From assembly GCA_030062745.1 (NCBI GenBank), contig CP099843.1, forward strand, positions 1,302,001 through 1,366,000: DNA of 64,000 nt, in the 5' to 3' direction. The position numbers and the translations under genes are program-made. Source of the DNA: Capitulum mitella (taxonomy: Eukaryota > Arthropoda > Thecostraca > Pollicipedomorpha > Pollicipedidae). Of the stretch, positions 4,730 to 60,959 are shown in pieces (within the stretch, counting starts at the first letter, position 1; every line of letters starts with the position of its first letter). Under the pieces are notes generated by a model, which was not told the origin of the DNA, made no database searches, and saw nothing but the letters and a program-made list of their open reading frames with translations.

Positions 4730-4838
<109 letters not shown>

Positions 4839-5359
4839 TCGTACCCGAGTCCCAACTGTAGTCCATTGGTCGGAATTACAGAAGCGCGTGTCTTAGGGTA
4901 AATTATAAAGCAAATTATAGATACCCATGTTGTTTGCATTGAAAGTATTTTTAACGTCCAACTTGATAAACATGGGTGCTCTCGTGATTAGAGAAGCACG
5001 ATGGAACGGGAAAGCCGACAGGCGTGCGTCAATCTGCATGCCGTGGTTGTGATTACTTTCGGGCCATTTATTGCATGGCTGATGAATGCGTTAGGAAAAT
5101 TAAGACCATGTGCATTATATCGGATGACGCGAGCGGTAAACACGTTGCCAGCCGATGACCTGGACCTGGACAGGGCAGAGGGTCATGCATGGATGTATCT
5201 GTTTGTTTGTTATTTCCTCGTTTTCAGTTTTACGGAAAGTTGTTCGTTCTGGTGTCTTACCGCGCCCTGCTCCCGAATATCCGGAATCCTCGCCTTCACG
5301 CGTCGCATTGGCTGCCCGAAGCAGAGCGTTGAATTTCTGAGATGGACTTGCAGCGTGGT

Positions 5360-50172: not shown

Positions 50173-53100
50173 CTACACCACCGGCACGTGCTGGAACCGG
50201 TGGCCGTCGGCCACGAACACGGGCCGGCCGCTGATGTAGGTAGCGCGCACGTGGATGTCGTCCGAGAGCAGTACGAAGTCGGCGTCCGAGCCGTACTCCA
50301 GCGTGCCCTTCCTGTCGGTGATGCCCAGCGCCCGGGCTGGGTGCAGCGAGGCCGCCTCCAGCGCCTCTACCGTGGTGCAGCCTGATGACAGCAAACGAAA
50401 ACAGGCTGACTATACGGTATAATCCTCCGGACGAGGGCTGGCAACAGCCAAGGAGGCCGCCTCCAGCGCCTCCACCGTGGCACGGTCTGACGACAGCAAA
50501 GGGAAACAGGCTGACTGCACGGTACAGTCCTTTAGACGAGGGCTAGCAACAAGCAGGTACCCAGGAACCGGCCACGGGGGGATCCTCAAAAGGGGGCCTC
50601 CTCACTCCAAGGCGGCCTTCTCAGCCCAAGAGGCCTCCACCAAAAGGTGCCGAGATGGCTCCCATGGCCACCTCGGCACCAAAAAAGGGACCTTATCATT
50701 TGCAGCAACCTCCTACAGTACGAGGAGATCTCCTATAGCGGAGGGAGCCTCCTATAACTTCAAGCGGACCTCCTACAGCATCGAGGGGCCTCTTATAACA
50801 TCAAGGGGCCTCCTATTGCTTCAAGGGGCATTCCATAGCACAAGGGGACCTTCTTTATCAAGGAGGCCTCCTATGACCTCAATGGGTCTCCTATGGACCT
50901 ATGGCAACATGGAGGGCCCACCATGGCTTCGAGAACCAAATCTGAGAATCCTGTAAACTCACACGGGGATGGAAAAGGGGGCCCTGACAGGAAAAATGGA
51001 GGCTCTGAAGGGGGCCTCCATTTTCATCTTTTTCCCAAGCGGGGGTCGACCATCCCCACCCCTGGCTACGCCCCCGGTTGCCAAGCCTCTTGGTCCTGAT
51101 ATTTCTCATCCAGCAGCATTGCAGAGATGAGCAACGTAAACATCAAGCACGCGTGAACACCACGACAGCTTCTGACGGTGGCTAGAACTCCGCAGAGGTC
51201 AACTGGGGAATTCAAATCGTGATGGATTCCACGGGACCACATTTTCGACAAAGAGCACACTATTTTTCCGTGATGACCACGTGATGACACGAAAGTGCGA
51301 CACCAAGAGTCTCGGCTCATCTGACACTGACGGGCCGAGTGGATTAAGTGCCTGATGCAGCTGTCCATGGTGACGATGGAGCCGCAGAGGGTCTCCGTGC
51401 CGGCGATCACGGCCTGCTCGCCCTGGATCTCCACGTCCATGTCGCCGATGTGGTGTCGACCAGAGCCCAGACCCATGGCTGAGACTGCGTCAGTCACCAG
51501 GCACAGACCTGCGGGTACGCCGGCGTCACCGCACTATCATCGCACAGAGGCCTGAGGGTACACCAGTGTCACCACACTGTCACCACACCGAGGCCTGAAG
51601 GTACACCGGCGTCTCAACAATGTCATCGCACAGAAGTCTCAGGGTACACCAGAGTCTCAACACTACACTGCCACCAAACCTGGGGTACACCTGGGTAACT
51701 ACACTGTCACCACCAGACTTCGGGTACACCAGGGTCACCACATGGTCCCCAGACAGAGACCTGAGTAAACACCAGGATCACCACAATGTCATCAGAGGTT
51801 TGAGGGCGTCCGTACGTAGGGAAACTGCAGCAGGGACAGAGCATCAGCCTGGTTTAGATGGTACATCATGGTCACTGACTACACAGGAAAGCAACAGAGC
51901 TCACGAACAAGGATCTCGACGGACGAGGTGCAGCGCAGCAGAGGCCAGTAACGGTGCAACATTTATTGGTTAGAGAATATGTATCAATAAACAGTCATTC
52001 TATGAATTGCATACCAATGAGTAAAAAAATTCACGTCTTACCAATGGGATGTGTCTTGTAGGCGATCCTCAGAGCAGCTGGATGTGTGTGGATGCCGTCT
52101 GATATAATGCCGTACCAGAGTTCTTCAAGCGGCAACATCTTCGAGGTCAGCATGCCGATGATGCCCGGGTCGCGGTGATGGAACTGTAGCACGGTCACAC
52201 CACGTCAACAACGTGCCAGGCCGTCTCTCCGACGTACACAAGGACAAAGGATGGTGGTACTGAAATATGCAGTCTTACCTCACACACTAGTCTCAGAGCT
52301 CACCAATGTACGGGTCTCCACAAGTTATGGTGGGTACTAGGCTCTGCGACAATATGGAGCGTATTTCCTGAGCTGTAGATAGTACATCGCCACAAAAACA
52401 CAGTATGGTAGGATGAAAAGCTTCGTATCATTCTATATACATGTCCGCATCTGCATTGTCTCAGCACTGCTAAATTTTCCGGAATAATGGTTTTTGCTTC
52501 ATTTGCCAGAGCTTTCGCCGCCTCTTCCTACATGCGTCCCCGCCCGTTACGACCCTTCGCTGACAAGTGGCCGGTTGTCTCAGGGGCATGTTTAGAGGCT
52601 ACCTTTCGTAGTAGATCGGACCGCTGTTAACACGCCGGCCAATGGGCGGATGTGTTTGGTGCGCCTTAAGAGGGAGGACAGGACCGGGCTTCCCACTGAT
52701 TGGCGTAGCGACTGGCACATCCGACTACTGTATGCTTATCTCACGGCAGTGCTACATTGTAAACCGTTTCACTCGTTTCCTTGAAATGATGCATATGCAA
52801 AGGCATGCATACCACTGGCATGAACCACTGGCAATCTGCGCGAACGGTTCAAACCGGGCCAAGTCAAACAGAAGTTGCAGTTGCATAAAGCCATCCAATG
52901 GAAGATATCGGTGACATGAGTGGATCCGTGCCGATGGTGTTAAAACTCACGCTCTCTAAAACACGACCAGTCATCCCAGGCTCATCGGACCAGGAACGGA
53001 TAGCTGACCTACCATTCGCTCTTTTCTTTTTATATTATCACTGACGCCACTGGAAATGTCAGATATGGGTGGATGCAAACGTCCATGTTTTCCAACATTC

Positions 53101-54997: not shown

Positions 54998-57900
54998 TCA
55001 TCAAAACGCTTCGCTAGGACGTTAAGGGATCAGAGTCCGCGCTAAACAGTGTTTGTTGCACGGAATCTGATCCCTAAACCCGATCGCGCAATTGCACGTT
55101 AACAACAACATTTTGAGGCGGAACCTTAATGTTGCCGCAGTCCGCGGTGATCATTTTGTTTTTGTTTGGTTGATGATTTAACTGCGCCGTTTGCGGCGAC
55201 CTTGTCTAACGTTTGTCTTTGAGTGTCACTTTGTTCCTGACTGGGAGGCCGGCACCACTCCGGAAAATGTAACTATTTAATTTTCTTTGTGACTAAAATC
55301 GAACTATTGCAGCTGTTTTCTCTTTTGATTGATTGATTGCCCATGATTACAGGTTTCTACGTAAACAAAAAGATTGTCTGAACCGTACACCGATCCTTAA
55401 CTAGCCAAAAGGCCGGTACATTTAACATGCTGACATGAACGACACAGTCGCGCGGTAGCTGCAGTGTCTCCCTCTACCGGTCAGCTGCCACGTGGCCCGC
55501 GGGGGAAACGGCGAGCGCAGAGGCGACTGGAACCCAGCCTCGCCACGGCGGGGAGCGGTGACAAACGCTCTAACAACTGAGCCATCGACACGATACTGAC
55601 ACTGAGCATCAGGTGAATTTCAGCCTTCCACTGCTTATGATCAGACAACTCCACTCGACTCTGCAACAGACCTAAGTACCTACCGCCACGTGGTCACCTG
55701 TATCAACCCGATGCCACCATGAGTGTCAATATTTGGTGTGTGCACCAACGCGTGCGTATCCGGCCGCAACAGACAACTCTGCAGCGGACCTAGGAGCCTA
55801 CCGTTACTTAAGTGACCGCCTGTATAAACCAGGTGTCACCGTCAATGTAAATGTTCGGTGTGCGCATCAATGCGCATGTACCATGCACCAATGCACCAAC
55901 GTACCCATGCATCCAGCTGCAGTGGACCAATGGGCACTCGAACGACGACGATCATTAATGGAGCGAGGACAAAACGTCATCTTCATCTTCGTCACGATCG
56001 GCTTCTGGTGTTGCCTCGTCCCACTGACCTTAGTCATGGCGTTGAAAAGGTGCGTCATGAAGCGGGCACCGCATTCGAACGCCTTCTCTCCGTCCACGAT
56101 GGATCCCGCCGAGTGTCCTGCGGAACCGTCAGCCGGCTCAACGCACTGCCGTGGCCGGGCGACTTCGCGACAGACACCCGTCACAAACGGACACGGCGAT
56201 TCAACGTGTTTCTACCTGCTTCTTCGTGCGTTACAGTCAGCCAACCCAACAGAGAGCAGCCGGCCTGGCGACTTCATAACAAAAGACACTGCTGTACACG
56301 AACATGAGGATCTAGCTTGCTTCTTGGTCTTTTCAAACGCAATAAATAAAGGCGCTTACACGAGTCCTCTTACAATATAGTACTGCGACCCCATGAACGT
56401 AGCAGCACTTAGCGTTTGCAGTAAAACTGAAACTGGCATAAATGAGTGTCCTGTAAACAATAACACCGATAAACTACAAAAAATCATACATAAAAAACCG
56501 AAGCAAATAATGAGTGTGCATGACATTAGCAAACTGGTACCCAAAGCTAACACACGAAAAACATGCCATTCCACGAGCTTTTGAAAAAAAAAAACATAAG
56601 CAGTTGGGGACACCGGGGCCTCAGACGCCTCACCCAAAGACTCACCGACTGACACCACGATCCCACGGTCAGTCAGGCTACGCACGGCGTCAAAAGAGGA
56701 CTCACCGACTGACACCACGATCCCACGGTCAGTCAGGCCCCGCACGGCGTCAGAAGAGGACTCACCGACTGACACCACGATCCCACGGTCAGTCAGGCCC
56801 CGCACGGCGTCAGAAGAGGACTCACCGACTGACACCACGATCCCAAGGTCAGTCAGGCCCCGCACGGCGTCAGAAGAGGACTCACCGACTGACACCACGA
56901 TCCCGCGGTCAGTCAGGCCCCGCACGGCGTCAAAAGAGGACTCACCGACTGACACCACGATCCCAAGGTCAGTCAGGCCCCGCACGGCGTCAGAAGAGGA
57001 CTCACCGACTGACACCACGATCCCGCGGTCAGTCAGGCCCCGCACGGCGTCAAAAGAGGACTCACCGACTGACACCACGATCCCACGGTCAGTCAGGCCC
57101 CGCACGGCGTCAGAAGAGGACTCACCGACTGACACCACGATCCCGCGGTCAGTCAGGCCCCGCACGGCGTCAAAAGAGGACTCACCGACTGACACCACGA
57201 TCCCACGGTCAGTCAGGCCCCGCACGGCGTCAGAAGAGGACTCACCGACTGACACCACGATCCCACGGTCAGTCAGGCCCCGCACGGCGTCAGAAGAGGA
57301 CTCACCGACTGACACCACGATCCCACGGTCAGTCAGGCCCCGCACGGCGTCAAAAGAGGACTCACCGACAGACACCACGATCCCGCGGTCAGTCAGGCTA
57401 CGCACGGCGTCCAGCGCATTGGGCAGCTCTGGGGCCAGAGTCACCATGGCAACGTTGTCCAAGCAGCCGTACACGTCTTTCATGGTCGCGAAACCCTGGA
57501 GAAGGAGGGCGTCCACTGGTACAATGACATGGTACACTGAGGGCGACTCGTAGAACTCCTTGAAGTCAGACCAACTAGTTGAGCATGGAGGATTAGTTTG
57601 GTACATTAGGATCAGTGCTGATCACACCCCATATATAGGCGATGATGTAAAATAGGATGTTCTCTCCATCCTCATGGCCGTGTGGCATTTGGAACACACA
57701 GAGGTTGACGGAGGAAAATATTAAATAGCAGTATCTAACTGCATTCTCTTCTTTTTTTAAGCGATACAACCATCACGATGTCTTCCGAGAAGAGGCAGGC
57801 CTATGGCAGGCATCCAATGCCTCACTACGATTCACCTCGTCAAGGTGGTGGATGTGCTGCTCTGGATGGGCACCCTTCTTTTCCTTGCTGATGAACGGCC

Positions 57901-60900
57901 CCTCGAGGTGCGCGCCAAGCACGCCGGCGCCCTCCTTCCCGCCAGGCCGCTTCTTCAGTAGTGGCAGCACCTGCACCCAGCCAGACACCGATAAAATGCC
58001 CAAAACTATTTTATCAATTCCCTGTCATCTTAAATTCGACCCGGCCAGATGTCAGATCGGCAAGGCAAGACAGTACAGATACACGACACTCACCTTCCTC
58101 CCCTTCGGCCCGCCACAGTTGCGGGCACAAAAACGAAACGGCACACCACCGTACATCTCCTCTTACACAGGCGGGCTTAAACTGCGGGCTTTACCAGGAC
58201 TCAACTACAAACGCACAGACGCCACTGTACCATCATTCTCAGACATGCTGACTTTGCAGTAACAGAGCGAACCTCCGTCCTCGGAGGATCTTTTTTGTTC
58301 GGAGGCCCCTTGAGCGTCGGCGGTCGGCCGCCTCCGGACCCACCTTGCGATAGACGCTGGGAGCGCAGGTGATCATCGTGGGCAGAAATGAGGTGACGCC
58401 ATGCGCCAGGATACCACGAGCCACTACTGACACAGCCTCTTCCGTCTTGTCCTCGTCAAAGGAAAAGTCGTACCCGAACCCCCCTGAGGCAGGACGACGT
58501 GTAAAAGTCAAGCAACAGAAGCACGCAACTGCGCGTGCAGCCGAATACTGCACGGCGGCAGGAAGACGTGTAGGAGTCAAGTAACAGAAGCACGCGACTG
58601 CGCGTGCAGCCGAATACTGCACGGATACTTTATATGGCTTAACCCTGCAACATTTAAATATGTCTATGTGTTGACAGCCGTGACTAAATTATTTACCATG
58701 GCGATGCTTAGGATCAGAGCCAGTGGTAAAAAATGTTGTTCTTGGGACTCTGAACTTCATGCCTTATATTGCAATCCCCGTTAATAGCTGATTTTGAGGC
58801 AAGGGTTGACCATGCTGCAAACAGGACAAATCGCCCACTTAACGGCACAATTTTCCACCCTCATCTCCCCGATTTGGTTGCAAACTGGTCCAGGAGGTTG
58901 TCTTGCTCACCAATCATGGCTGTTCGGGTTTTGGGCTCGGCAGACGTACGATCTGGGAGTTAATGCCTCTGACATTTTAGCACACCGCATGGCAAGGGGC
59001 ATCATTCATGGTAGATAAACCAAGTCACGTCCTGGACGGGATTAGTTATAGACGCGGTGAAGAGGAGACCCATCATTCTTCACAATCTTCCCGGATGTGC
59101 TAAAGAGAAGGGACCGCACAGGTAATCTACCTGGAATCTACCCACCAGCAATGCAAGCAATTTTACTTACATCTTCCCAGTCAGAAAAGTACTAAGTGCT
59201 TCCCTAGCGGCATTCCTCTGTTCGTAATAGAAAACCAAGCCAGGAATGATTAAATGTCTTACAATGAATAAAAATGAGCCATGACTTGTTTACTTGACGA
59301 CGCATACGCCCAGTTCTTGGAAGAAAAACTGCTATAGCACTGCTAACGCAATCAGTGGAGAAAATATGCCATTTGGTAGGCGCCTTCGACTTTCACGAAC
59401 GCTGAACTGGTCAACTAGCCAGGTGACAAAAAGGCAATGAAATGACGCATGCGCATCTTTAATAAATAAATAAGTAAATAAATAAAGACATGTCACAGAC
59501 CATCATGGGTTTGTGTTCCAACGATCCCCTGTTTTAGGACGCACAAATGAATAATTTAGTCCGAATTTTGTTAGAAGTGACGGCTGCGAGAAAATGTGTT
59601 CTGAATAATGAAAAAGCCAGACTGGAATTCGGGACGTCAAGCTGCATCTAAAAACAGCCATGCACGTAAGTTTTGTACAAACGTTTGCCTTAAACTACCC
59701 GTTGTGCACATGGCACTTCAAGTTAATGTTTAAGAAATATTACAAACAAAATGTATGGAGAAGACTTCTATCTTTTCACTGCTTAAAAAAGAAGTAAGGC
59801 GGCTGAGCTTCTATTCTTGCCGTAAAGAGTTAATGTTTTGCTTAGCGCAAGGTCACGCTGGGTCACGTGGTAATGGGTCACGAGATTAACTGGATACTTG
59901 CAACCAAATGCAACAAAATGACACGATATTTGGGTCTTTATTTCACATTTTGGTTATGTCTCAACGTTTTCTGATACACTGTTGTCATAAATTTCGTTTG
60001 CTTTATTGACTTACAGATATCATGCCAAAGTCTTTAAAACTCAGGATTCATAACTCTCAAACCCCTGATCTGGAAGGTGAAATATTTCGCCCGCCGTATT
60101 TAGCGCCTATGATTACCCCAACCTACGACCAATAATCATTAAAATCTGACAGATAAGGTTAGTGGGCACTGGTCGATTTGTCGTGGAACGGTCCGGTTGC
60201 CAGATGACCCGGATAACAAATATCCAGCACTAAAACGACTCGAGCCCACCCTGACAGAATGGGGAGATCGTAATGCTTTCCATGCTGAGCTACCGATAAC
60301 AGACATTAATCTCACGGAAATGAGCCACCGCAAATACTCCTAGAACACAAACGCTGCCTTCGCACAGATCCTGATGCTTTGAATCACAGCTGGATATTAC
60401 TGTGCAAATTTCATGAACGTCGACTAGAGGTTTCGTTGGAACGGACAAGGCCCCCAGCTTTTTGGAGCGCCCATTATGCCAACAGACTGCGTGGAAGAAA
60501 CCCAAACAGACTTCATTGTACCTCTGTCCCGAAAACCACATACACCACAGAACACTCTTACTAGCAATGAAAAGGACGAGAAACACGACTCATCAAAACA
60601 GGTTGCATTTTTCCGCAGAAAAGATACATCTGAGAACGACATCACGTTATCGCACAATACTAAAGTTAAAAAACTCGACATAGTGTAGCTCACGCTATGA
60701 AACATGTCTCGTGAGACAAGTCCTTACCATTGATCTGAACATCGATGAACCCTGGAGCTATGACTGCATTTTGGCAATCAACCGCAAAAGACGGAGGGCG
60801 CTTCTGTATATAAAATAATTCTTCTGGGTTAATGATGCGTCCATCTTCAACCCAAAGGTCTTCCCGGATCAGCTGGTGATTTCGCAGAATACGGCAATTC

Positions 60901-60923
60901 TTAAACTGTGTGACTCCAGACAT
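50173..60923 (-). CDS. Amdhd2: N-acetylglucosamine-6-phosphate deacetylase
   Basis: Amidohydrolase that converts GlcNAc-6-P to GlcN-6-P plus acetate, in amino-sugar recycling. Exons in reading order: 60923-60728, 58483-58344, 57970-57836, 57495-57366, 56117-56029, 52183-52042, 51508-51332 and 50381-50173. They give 405 residues, close to the human protein, with every phase matching. Motifs: FIDVQINGG (60-67), HLEGPF (133-138, metal-site Glu), GHS (201-203, split by intron 4), HLFNAM (223-228), SDGIH (258-262), VTDAV with the catalytic Asp (D284) and [14 protein letters not shown] near the end. The start was chosen at [13 protein letters not shown]. An in-frame ATG at 60956 follows an acceptor-like TTCACAG and may be 5' UTR. 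The exon 4 donor is repeated 13 times in a 60-bp array (56641-57411). Using later donors would add multiples of 20 residues, up to 240. Exons 2, 7 and 8 also have tandem repeats at their acceptors. Confidence 0.96.
50348..50557 (-). repeat. 105-bp tandem duplication across the exon 8 acceptor of AMDHD2
   Basis: GAGGCCGCCTCCAGCGCCTC starts at 50348 and again at 50453. The gene-proximal copy contains the working acceptor and first codons of exon 8. The upstream copy (in gene direction) keeps an acceptor-like TCGTCAG and TVEALEAAS but then diverges, so its inclusion would break the protein. Confidence 0.85.
50575..50920. repeat. degenerate GGGGCCTCCTAT array in AMDHD2 intron 7
   Basis: About a dozen imperfect ~25-30-base units such as AAGGGGCCTCCTAT. 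Same motif family as the longer array at 37170-39110. Confidence 0.75.
51508..51810 (-). repeat. ~43-bp tandem array starting at the exon 7 acceptor of AMDHD2
   Basis: GGTAC/GGTACACC recurs at 51514, 51557, 51600, 51643, 51684 and 51723, then as AGTA at 51764 (spacing 43, 43, 43, 41, 39, 41). In gene orientation most units read GTGTACC..CAG followed by a coding-like stretch, so several contain an acceptor-like TACCCTCAG. The unit touching the exon supplies the real acceptor (GTACCCGCAG). Confidence 0.8.
53124..53636 (+). mobile_element. piggyBac-like MITE in intron 5 of AMDHD2
   Basis: TTAA at 53124-53127 and 53633-53636. The left end TTAACCTTCGCCGCACG and the right end read backwards, TTAACCCTCGCCGGACG, are inverted repeats. 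About 510 bp, internally related to the copies at 25604-26286 and 7937-8535. Non-coding. Confidence 0.82.
53637..55480. other. remainder of AMDHD2 intron 5
   Basis: No coding content recognised. Contains the AT-rich microsatellites at 54849-54995. Confidence 0.5.
54849..54995. repeat. (AT)n microsatellite, compound
   Basis: Two AT tracts (about 54849-54889 and 54929-54995) separated by a short interrupted segment with ACACACA. Confidence 0.95.
55505..55588 (-). mobile_element. tRNA-derived SINE head, candidate
   Basis: On the minus strand TGGCTCAGTTGTTAGAGCG resembles an RNA polymerase III A-box, and about 40 bases later GGTTCCAGTCGCC resembles a B-box. The spacing and order match a tRNA. 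The cloverleaf stems do not close well, so a decayed tRNA-derived SINE is likelier than a functional tRNA. Confidence 0.45.
56641..57411 (-). repeat. 60-bp array: 13 copies of the AMDHD2 exon 4 3' end plus splice donor
   Basis: Twelve complete 60-bp units (56641-57360) plus the ancestral unit (57361-57411). Each encodes [16 protein letters not shown], then the donor G|GTGAGT, then codons ESSF or ESSS, without a stop. Units differ at a few sites: F or S (CAAAAG/CAGAAG), and R or L in TDRG/TDLG. The outermost units (56641 and 57361) share SLTDRG, while internal ones have GLTDRG. This suggests expansion from within. Confidence 0.97.
58484..58622 (-). repeat. 69-bp tandem duplication at the exon 2 acceptor of AMDHD2
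   Basis: AGGACGACGTGTAAAAGTCA at 58491 and AGGAAGACGTGTAGGAGTCA at 58560 begin two units of 69 bp with few differences. The duplicated part is the region just upstream of the acceptor (branch-point and pyrimidine zone in gene orientation). Confidence 0.9.
58623..60690. other. AMDHD2 intron 1
   Basis: No gene or strong repeat recognised. A short AATAAATAAATAAGTAAAT run lies near 59461. Confidence 0.5.
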
Positions 60924-60959
60924 TTTGATATTATAAGCTGTACCTGTGAATGACATTTA

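Follow-up and report, generated by a model that had tools for sequence, protein, structure and literature searches.

Thirteen in-frame copies of a 5' splice site in the AMDHD2 gene of the barnacle Capitulum mitella, probably a tolerated minisatellite

How the spliceosome chooses among identical 5' splice sites that lie next to one another is a classic question, and the AMDHD2 gene of the barnacle Capitulum mitella poses it in natural form. In the 64,000 nucleotides of contig CP099843.1 analyzed here (positions 1,302,001 to 1,366,000 of assembly GCA_030062745.1; hereafter the window, to which coordinates refer unless a contig is named), the end of an exon, together with its splice donor, recurs in tandem. 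An initial annotation, made from the letters of the window, offered two accounts of this array: a natural generator of isoforms of variable length, or a tolerated minisatellite of which only the first donor is used. The locus thus raises the question of which donor is taken and why such an array should persist inside a housekeeping gene.

The gene can be modeled as eight exons on the minus strand, with GT-AG boundaries at 7/7 introns (Table 1). Use of the first donor yields a complete protein of 416 residues with zero insert, whose residues 14-409 align to residues 11-408 of human AMDHD2 (E 7.5e-148); exon 4 alone also matches the human enzyme (7nut, E 2.9e-6), and the exon 4-5 junction is ungapped in the alignment (vsvGHSag against vslGHSva). 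Exon 5 opens at 56117 with GACACTC, whose GA completes the Gly codon of the GHS motif. The junction reads G|GA CAC TCG (G-H-S), and the first codon lying wholly within exon 5 is that of the His of this motif, His211 in human numbering. The accessible text of a study of the human enzyme gives Glu143, His211 and His232 as zinc ligands and His242 and Arg243 as phosphate-binding residues, and reports homozygous loss in the mouse as embryonic lethal (PMC8970586). The zinc ligands, along with His242 and Arg243, are identical in the barnacle protein. The gene has the full-length similarity to characterized enzymes that is expected of an AMDHD2/NagA deacetylase. A search of the assembly with the TIGR00221 profile gave seven matches, six of which are exons of this gene while the seventh has an E value of 0.028, and by this profile no second NagA-type gene was detected in the whole assembly.

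Table 1. Coordinates in the window of the AMDHD2 exons, the donor array and the repeats at acceptors
Feature	Position	Strand	Basis
AMDHD2 exon 1 (putative start codon at 60956)	60728..60956	-	gene model and human AMDHD2 alignment
AMDHD2 exon 2	58344..58483	-	gene model and human AMDHD2 alignment
AMDHD2 exon 3	57836..57970	-	gene model and human AMDHD2 alignment
AMDHD2 exon 4 with first donor (130 nt, phase 0 to 1)	57366..57495	-	gene model and human AMDHD2 match
Donor array, 13 head-to-tail units of 60 bp	56632..57411	-	Tandem Repeats Finder and direct reading
First donor GTGAGT (yields conserved protein)	57360..57365	-	direct reading, gene model, human alignment
Donors 2 to 13, one per 60 bp	between 57305 and 56640	-	direct reading
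Thirteenth donor GTGAGT	56640..56645	-	direct reading
AMDHD2 exon 5 (89 nt, phase 1 to 0)	56029..56117	-	gene model
AMDHD2 exon 6	52042..52183	-	gene model and human AMDHD2 alignment
43-bp x 7 array, 69% matches, reaching 8 nt over exon 7 acceptor	51501..51793	-	Tandem Repeats Finder and gene model
AMDHD2 exon 7	51332..51508	-	gene model and human AMDHD2 alignment
105-bp x 1.9 duplication, covering 34 nt of exon 8 together with its acceptor	50348..50551	-	Tandem Repeats Finder and gene model
AMDHD2 exon 8 (including stop codon)	50173..50381	-	gene model and human AMDHD2 alignment

The thirteen-fold array announced by the initial annotation is real: Tandem Repeats Finder delimits it at 56639-57411 (period 60, 12.9 copies, 96% matches, score 1434), and on direct reading the first unit begins at 57411 and the others follow every 60 bp. 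The interval originally given for it, 56641-57495, amounts to exon 4 plus the array, and each unit takes up 46 nt of the exon-4 end, i.e., 15 codons and one base rather than the 16 codons first counted, followed by 14 nt of the intron start. The final exon base before each donor lies at 57366, 57306 and so forth, every 60 bp as far as 56646, and the context GTCG|GTGAGT is identical at 13/13 donors. Units 1-12 terminate in CCTCTTCT or CCTCTTTT, while in unit 13 the unique intron begins after GTGAGTC. Variation is confined to 10/60 columns, the other 50/60 being invariant, and seven of the variable ones are due solely to unit 1 or unit 13; for example, CGTAGC is found in units 1 and 13 and CGGGGC in the 11 inner units. 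Such older edges around a homogenized core are the usual look of a minisatellite, and the array has the head-to-tail arrangement, the unit length (roughly 10 to 100 bp), the many copies and the high identity that define one. A query of two units against the assembly (477 Mb, 16 contigs) returned seven matches among the best candidates scored, all of them within the AMDHD2 array. Tandem mutually exclusive exons were also considered and rejected, the units having a donor but, as read by eye, no pyrimidine tract and acceptor.

The further claims that the units are free of stops and that the reading frame is the same whichever donor is chosen are borne out as well. There are zero stops in the exon-4 frame of 13/13 units, in which the unit peptide reads DAVR(S/G)LTD(R/L), ten further residues and (S/F), with GESLG closing the last unit, and every donor supplies the one upstream G that exon 5 requires. 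The spliced model accordingly stays open to the normal stop for 13/13 choices, with predicted products of 416 to 656 residues. The 20-residue inserts would indeed be placed directly before the metal-binding GHS, i.e., one residue N-terminal of the zinc ligand His211, and proteins carrying them are expected to fold badly or to be inactive because the insert immediately precedes a zinc-binding residue. The openness of the frame is at the same time the sole ground on which an isoform generator has been proposed. A priori, one period in three is divisible by three, and an open frame then asks for only about four further codons, those from the 14 intron bases, so that an open in-frame array is expected by chance in about a quarter of cases. 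The consensus unit is open in 3/6 frames. The frame property by itself is weak evidence of function. Beyond the last donor, the coding frame runs open through intron 4 for 96 codons (56359-56645), a length equaled in 11/1000 shuffles, and this openness counts against a repeat that is simply tolerated.

Most likely, the AMDHD2 array is a minisatellite that arose on the exon 4 donor and is tolerated there, with donor 1 dominant. On this account, a 60-bp segment comprising the exon end and the donor would have been multiplied in tandem to 13 copies, the first of which would retain the original donor beside the original exon; the spliceosome would define exon 4 by its acceptor and that first donor, with copies 2 to 13 removed as intron, and arrays straddling splice sites might persist in the genome since the outermost site still functions. 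We infer tolerance to be the reason for the persistence of the array, and a minor share of AMDHD2 transcripts with at least one 20-residue insert is possible. Against this account, the shared GTCG|GTGAGT context gives the first donor no edge in strength over the other 12. Duplicated-donor experiments, moreover, have reportedly found the intron-proximal site to be preferred in some contexts, although no paper on them was found among the top-ranked literature matches. In DOK7, according to the available part of one report, SRSF1 suppresses the intron-distal site (PMC5585400), and such behavior, if taken as a precedent, would count against the first donor. Dominant use of donor 1 in AMDHD2 is nonetheless probable by analogy with other arrays of the same kind in this genome, which point to use of the exon-proximal donor.

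These sister arrays were sought as three copies of GGTGAGT lying 47 to 72 bases apart in the assembly, match counts including overlapping matches inside one array. At least 18 separate clusters are seen among the matches listed (C1, C2 and the first 3.43 Mb of C3), from which 17 loci were taken (the cluster at C1:10528628, with a unit much like a fetched one, being omitted) and 16 other arrays were read after L050, a weak array, had been dropped. In 11/16 the first donor ends an exon-like frame, as judged by eye (L035, L036, L038, L040, L041, L042, L044, L045, L046, L047 and L051), while at L037, L039, L043, L048 and L049 no recognizable exon was read at the array. Pfam supports 7/10 of the peptides submitted, which comprised 10 of the 11 with L047 left out: L038 (MST-like kinase) and L040 (myosin), both below the curated cut-off; L042 (insect-cuticle, PF00379) and L051 (V-ATPase), in both of which the match ends over 20 residues short of the donor; L044 (dynein heavy chain); L045 (SEMA5B-like TSP1); and L046 (acyl-CoA oxidase). 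The peptides before the first donor of L035, L036 and L041 had no Pfam match; we take L035 to be PHIP/BRWD-like, L041 GTPase-like and L047 Ig-like, and the V-ATPase subunit at L051 is presumably B. The next exon was found in 4/5 loci searched (L051, L038, L044 and L040) with a phase that fits the first boundary, the exception being L046, where no following exon was found.

When the 11 exon-end arrays are measured donor by donor, their spacing is irregular, and for 45/153 later donors the distance to the first is divisible by three, close to the one third expected by chance. This refutes an apparent deficit of in-frame spacing, considered because no Tandem Repeats Finder period in these arrays is divisible by three, and it suggests that arrays at donors are not in general selected for frame. 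A later donor that is in frame and has no stop before it is found in only 3/153 cases, one each in L035, L042 and L045, and use of a later donor in these genes would thus nearly always shift or stop the product. The second donor already shifts the frame in 9/11 arrays, the exceptions being L035 and L042, where it lies in frame and open at 72 and 51 bases, respectively. In contrast, 12/12 later donors of AMDHD2 are in frame and open, which sets this gene apart among those read. For the sister arrays, the simplest interpretation is near-constant use of the exon-proximal donor, though L035 and L042 weigh against it and other array-bearing genes could be damaged or spliced differently. Thus, of the two accounts offered initially, the tolerated minisatellite with donor 1 in use is the better fit and the isoform generator the poorer, in view of the colinearity of the zero-insert protein, the sister arrays and the chance level of the frame.

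Some arrays have features of their own. At L051 (around 4750-4960 of that locus), the frame-correct boundary is GTGGGT. Several GTGAGT copies come after it, starting 19 bases downstream, and not one is in frame and open; this locus offers a natural test of donor position against strength. Units of 34 bp recur in L036, L038, L040 and L047, and a double unit of 68 bp in L041, in arrays that are otherwise unrelated, the search pattern itself restricting the spacing that can recur. Separately, one stretch of the myosin-head profile (about 377-436) is matched several times within C16:5450234-5453643 and C15:16425920-16428593, at intervals of a few hundred to about 1,600 bases, the pattern expected of alternative muscle-myosin exons.

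A reading compatible with a tolerated minisatellite goes further and holds that 5' splice sites are favored starting points of minisatellites in this lineage, over and beyond tolerance alone—for example, through co-transcriptional RNA-DNA hybrids or a recombinogenic GGTGAG-like sequence. Many genes would then carry donor arrays in which the first donor must win, and AMDHD2 would be the case that happens to be in frame. We put this forward tentatively, as a possibility that has somewhat more against it than for it. The word AGGTGAG gives 1317 three-copy matches in the assembly, as against 210 for its reversal, 211 for AGATGAG and 47 for AGATGAG reversed, and it occupies 33 separate places on contig C1 against 2 and 2 for its reversal and AGATGAG (counted by eye, among the matches listed), whereas the words themselves are much closer in frequency (39, 21 and 33 occurrences, respectively, in 204.6 kb with the chosen arrays masked, a sequence that is not a random sample). 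Similarly, GGTGAGT gives 678 matches in the whole assembly against 317 for its reversal, 134 for GTTGGAG and 57 for GTTGGAG reversed. However, when clusters are counted by eye among the matches listed for C1, C2 and the first 3.43 Mb of C3, the 18 of GGTGAGT stand against 17 of the reversed word TGAGTGG (5 of them common to both) and 6 of GTTGGAG. GGTAAGT, a rare word with 10 occurrences in the 204.6 kb, is without excess (10 matches against 33 reversed), and the places of AGGTGAG are known relative to exons only where they are also GGTGAGT arrays. A 71-bp array at C2:6454648-6455009, found via a control word, contains GTGAGTGG after an exon end that we take to be WD40-like, and the reversed control is therefore itself contaminated by donor arrays. 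A preference of arrays for donors in this genome is at most suggested by word counts set against a few controls, with comparison sequence that is non-random.

A regulatory role has less to commend it. If several donors were used, AMDHD2 would be made in lengths differing by steps of 20 residues, with an effect on the hexosamine pathway, and the donors, which are identical across units, together with the 13/13 open choices in AMDHD2 set against the 3/153 of the other arrays, speak for this. There is also a precedent: the IFI6 minisatellite was reportedly described with its multiple splice donors by Turri, Cuin and Porter in 1995 (Nucleic Acids Res 23:1854). In the accessible text of a report on human IFI6 (6-16, G1P3), two neighboring downstream repeat units act as splice donors, with three mRNA species as the outcome (PMC4526556). 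IFI6 is the closest precedent for the barnacle array in that a tandem repeat at the end of an exon supplies several donors; in AMDHD2, too, a coding exon-intron boundary is spanned with a 5' splice site in 13/13 units, and the 60-bp length preserves the frame. It differs in being an interferon-stimulated gene with a 12-bp unit and proven transcripts, whereas the AMDHD2 array is known from genomic sequence and has a longer unit that would insert its residues beside an active site. That placement argues against a working ladder of isoforms, as does the chance share of in-frame donors in the sister arrays. Three sites vary among the inner units, two of them with a change of residue (R/L and S/F), and these few sites show no constraint on the protein. 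AlphaFold2 folds exon 4 with the array into repeated short strands (mean pLDDT 79.8), and this model was set aside as evidence because confident beta-solenoids predicted for perfect repeats are described as unrealistic in the available portion of PMC11795689. Pfam matches of the array-containing chain to 14 families were discounted as repeat noise, exon 4 alone giving one weak unrelated match. On balance, a functional series of AMDHD2 lengths is improbable.

Tandem repeats are prone to assembly error, but an inflated repeat number, or an array absent from the animal, is very unlikely in an array of 0.8 kb within a 477-Mb assembly in 16 contigs, with distinguishing variant units in non-periodic order and comparable arrays at other genes. 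Equally hard to credit is selection for U1-binding donors that, in the 5' part of the intron, block premature polyadenylation or tune the speed of splicing: the 13/13 donor hexamers are intact while other sites of the unit vary, but recent homogenization suffices to keep them identical and 50/60 columns are invariant too.

The reading of the array as a tolerated minisatellite with donor 1 in use also agrees with what is seen at the other end of the introns of AMDHD2. The repeats at exons 7 and 8 (Table 1) are the acceptor-side mirror of the donor array; in the former, the acceptor word TACCC.CAG is kept in just one other copy. A donor repeat leaves the first donor working and an acceptor repeat leaves the last acceptor working, and both may thus be tolerated, which fits a tolerance of any repeat that straddles a splice site. 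Within intron 4, a candidate alternative exon at 56374-56450, with the acceptor ttgtttacag|GACACTC at 56450, CAGGACACTC in common with exon 5 and a donor in matching phase, was treated as chance: its score was equaled by 95/1000 dinucleotide shuffles of the intron and by 689/2000 shuffled peptides.

A parallel might also be struck with two other bodies of work. The available text of a study of human genes in segmental duplications describes tandem repeats at exon-intron boundaries and 27 intron modifications (PMC2812944), and the parallel lies in minisatellite expansion at such boundaries, reported there to change gene structure and splicing. Those human genes, as far as that text goes, are recently duplicated and supported by transcripts, whereas AMDHD2 is one housekeeping gene, with no second copy detected in the assembly by profile search, joined to a hint of recurrence across the genome. 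In the Rogers model of intron gain by tandem duplication of AGGT segments, for which the accessible part of PMC4974935 names ATP2A1, 24-bp arrays of fission yeast and the potato RdRp, tandem copies likewise carry splice signals and duplicates become intron; in AMDHD2, on the best reading, an existing donor would have been multiplied and an existing intron lengthened. Among the top-ranked matches in the open-licence PMC literature, neither this AMDHD2 array nor a genome-wide occurrence of donor arrays in any arthropod was seen to be reported, and it is the recurrence of donor arrays within one genome that looks new.

AMDHD2 by itself is of lesser interest than the hint of a genome-wide recurrence of donor-straddling arrays. 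Such arrays, with 3 to about 30 near-equal donors at conserved exon ends, constitute a ready-made natural test of donor choice, and of those read AMDHD2 is the easiest to interpret, since every slip there stays in frame and open and should evade nonsense-mediated decay. They bear, moreover, on how introns lengthen and on the tolerance of repeats near genes. If 5' splice sites are in truth favored birthplaces of minisatellites in this lineage, the spliceosome would have to pick the first of many equal donors reliably in many genes, with AMDHD2 as the in-frame case in which any slip would add 20-residue steps to the translated protein.
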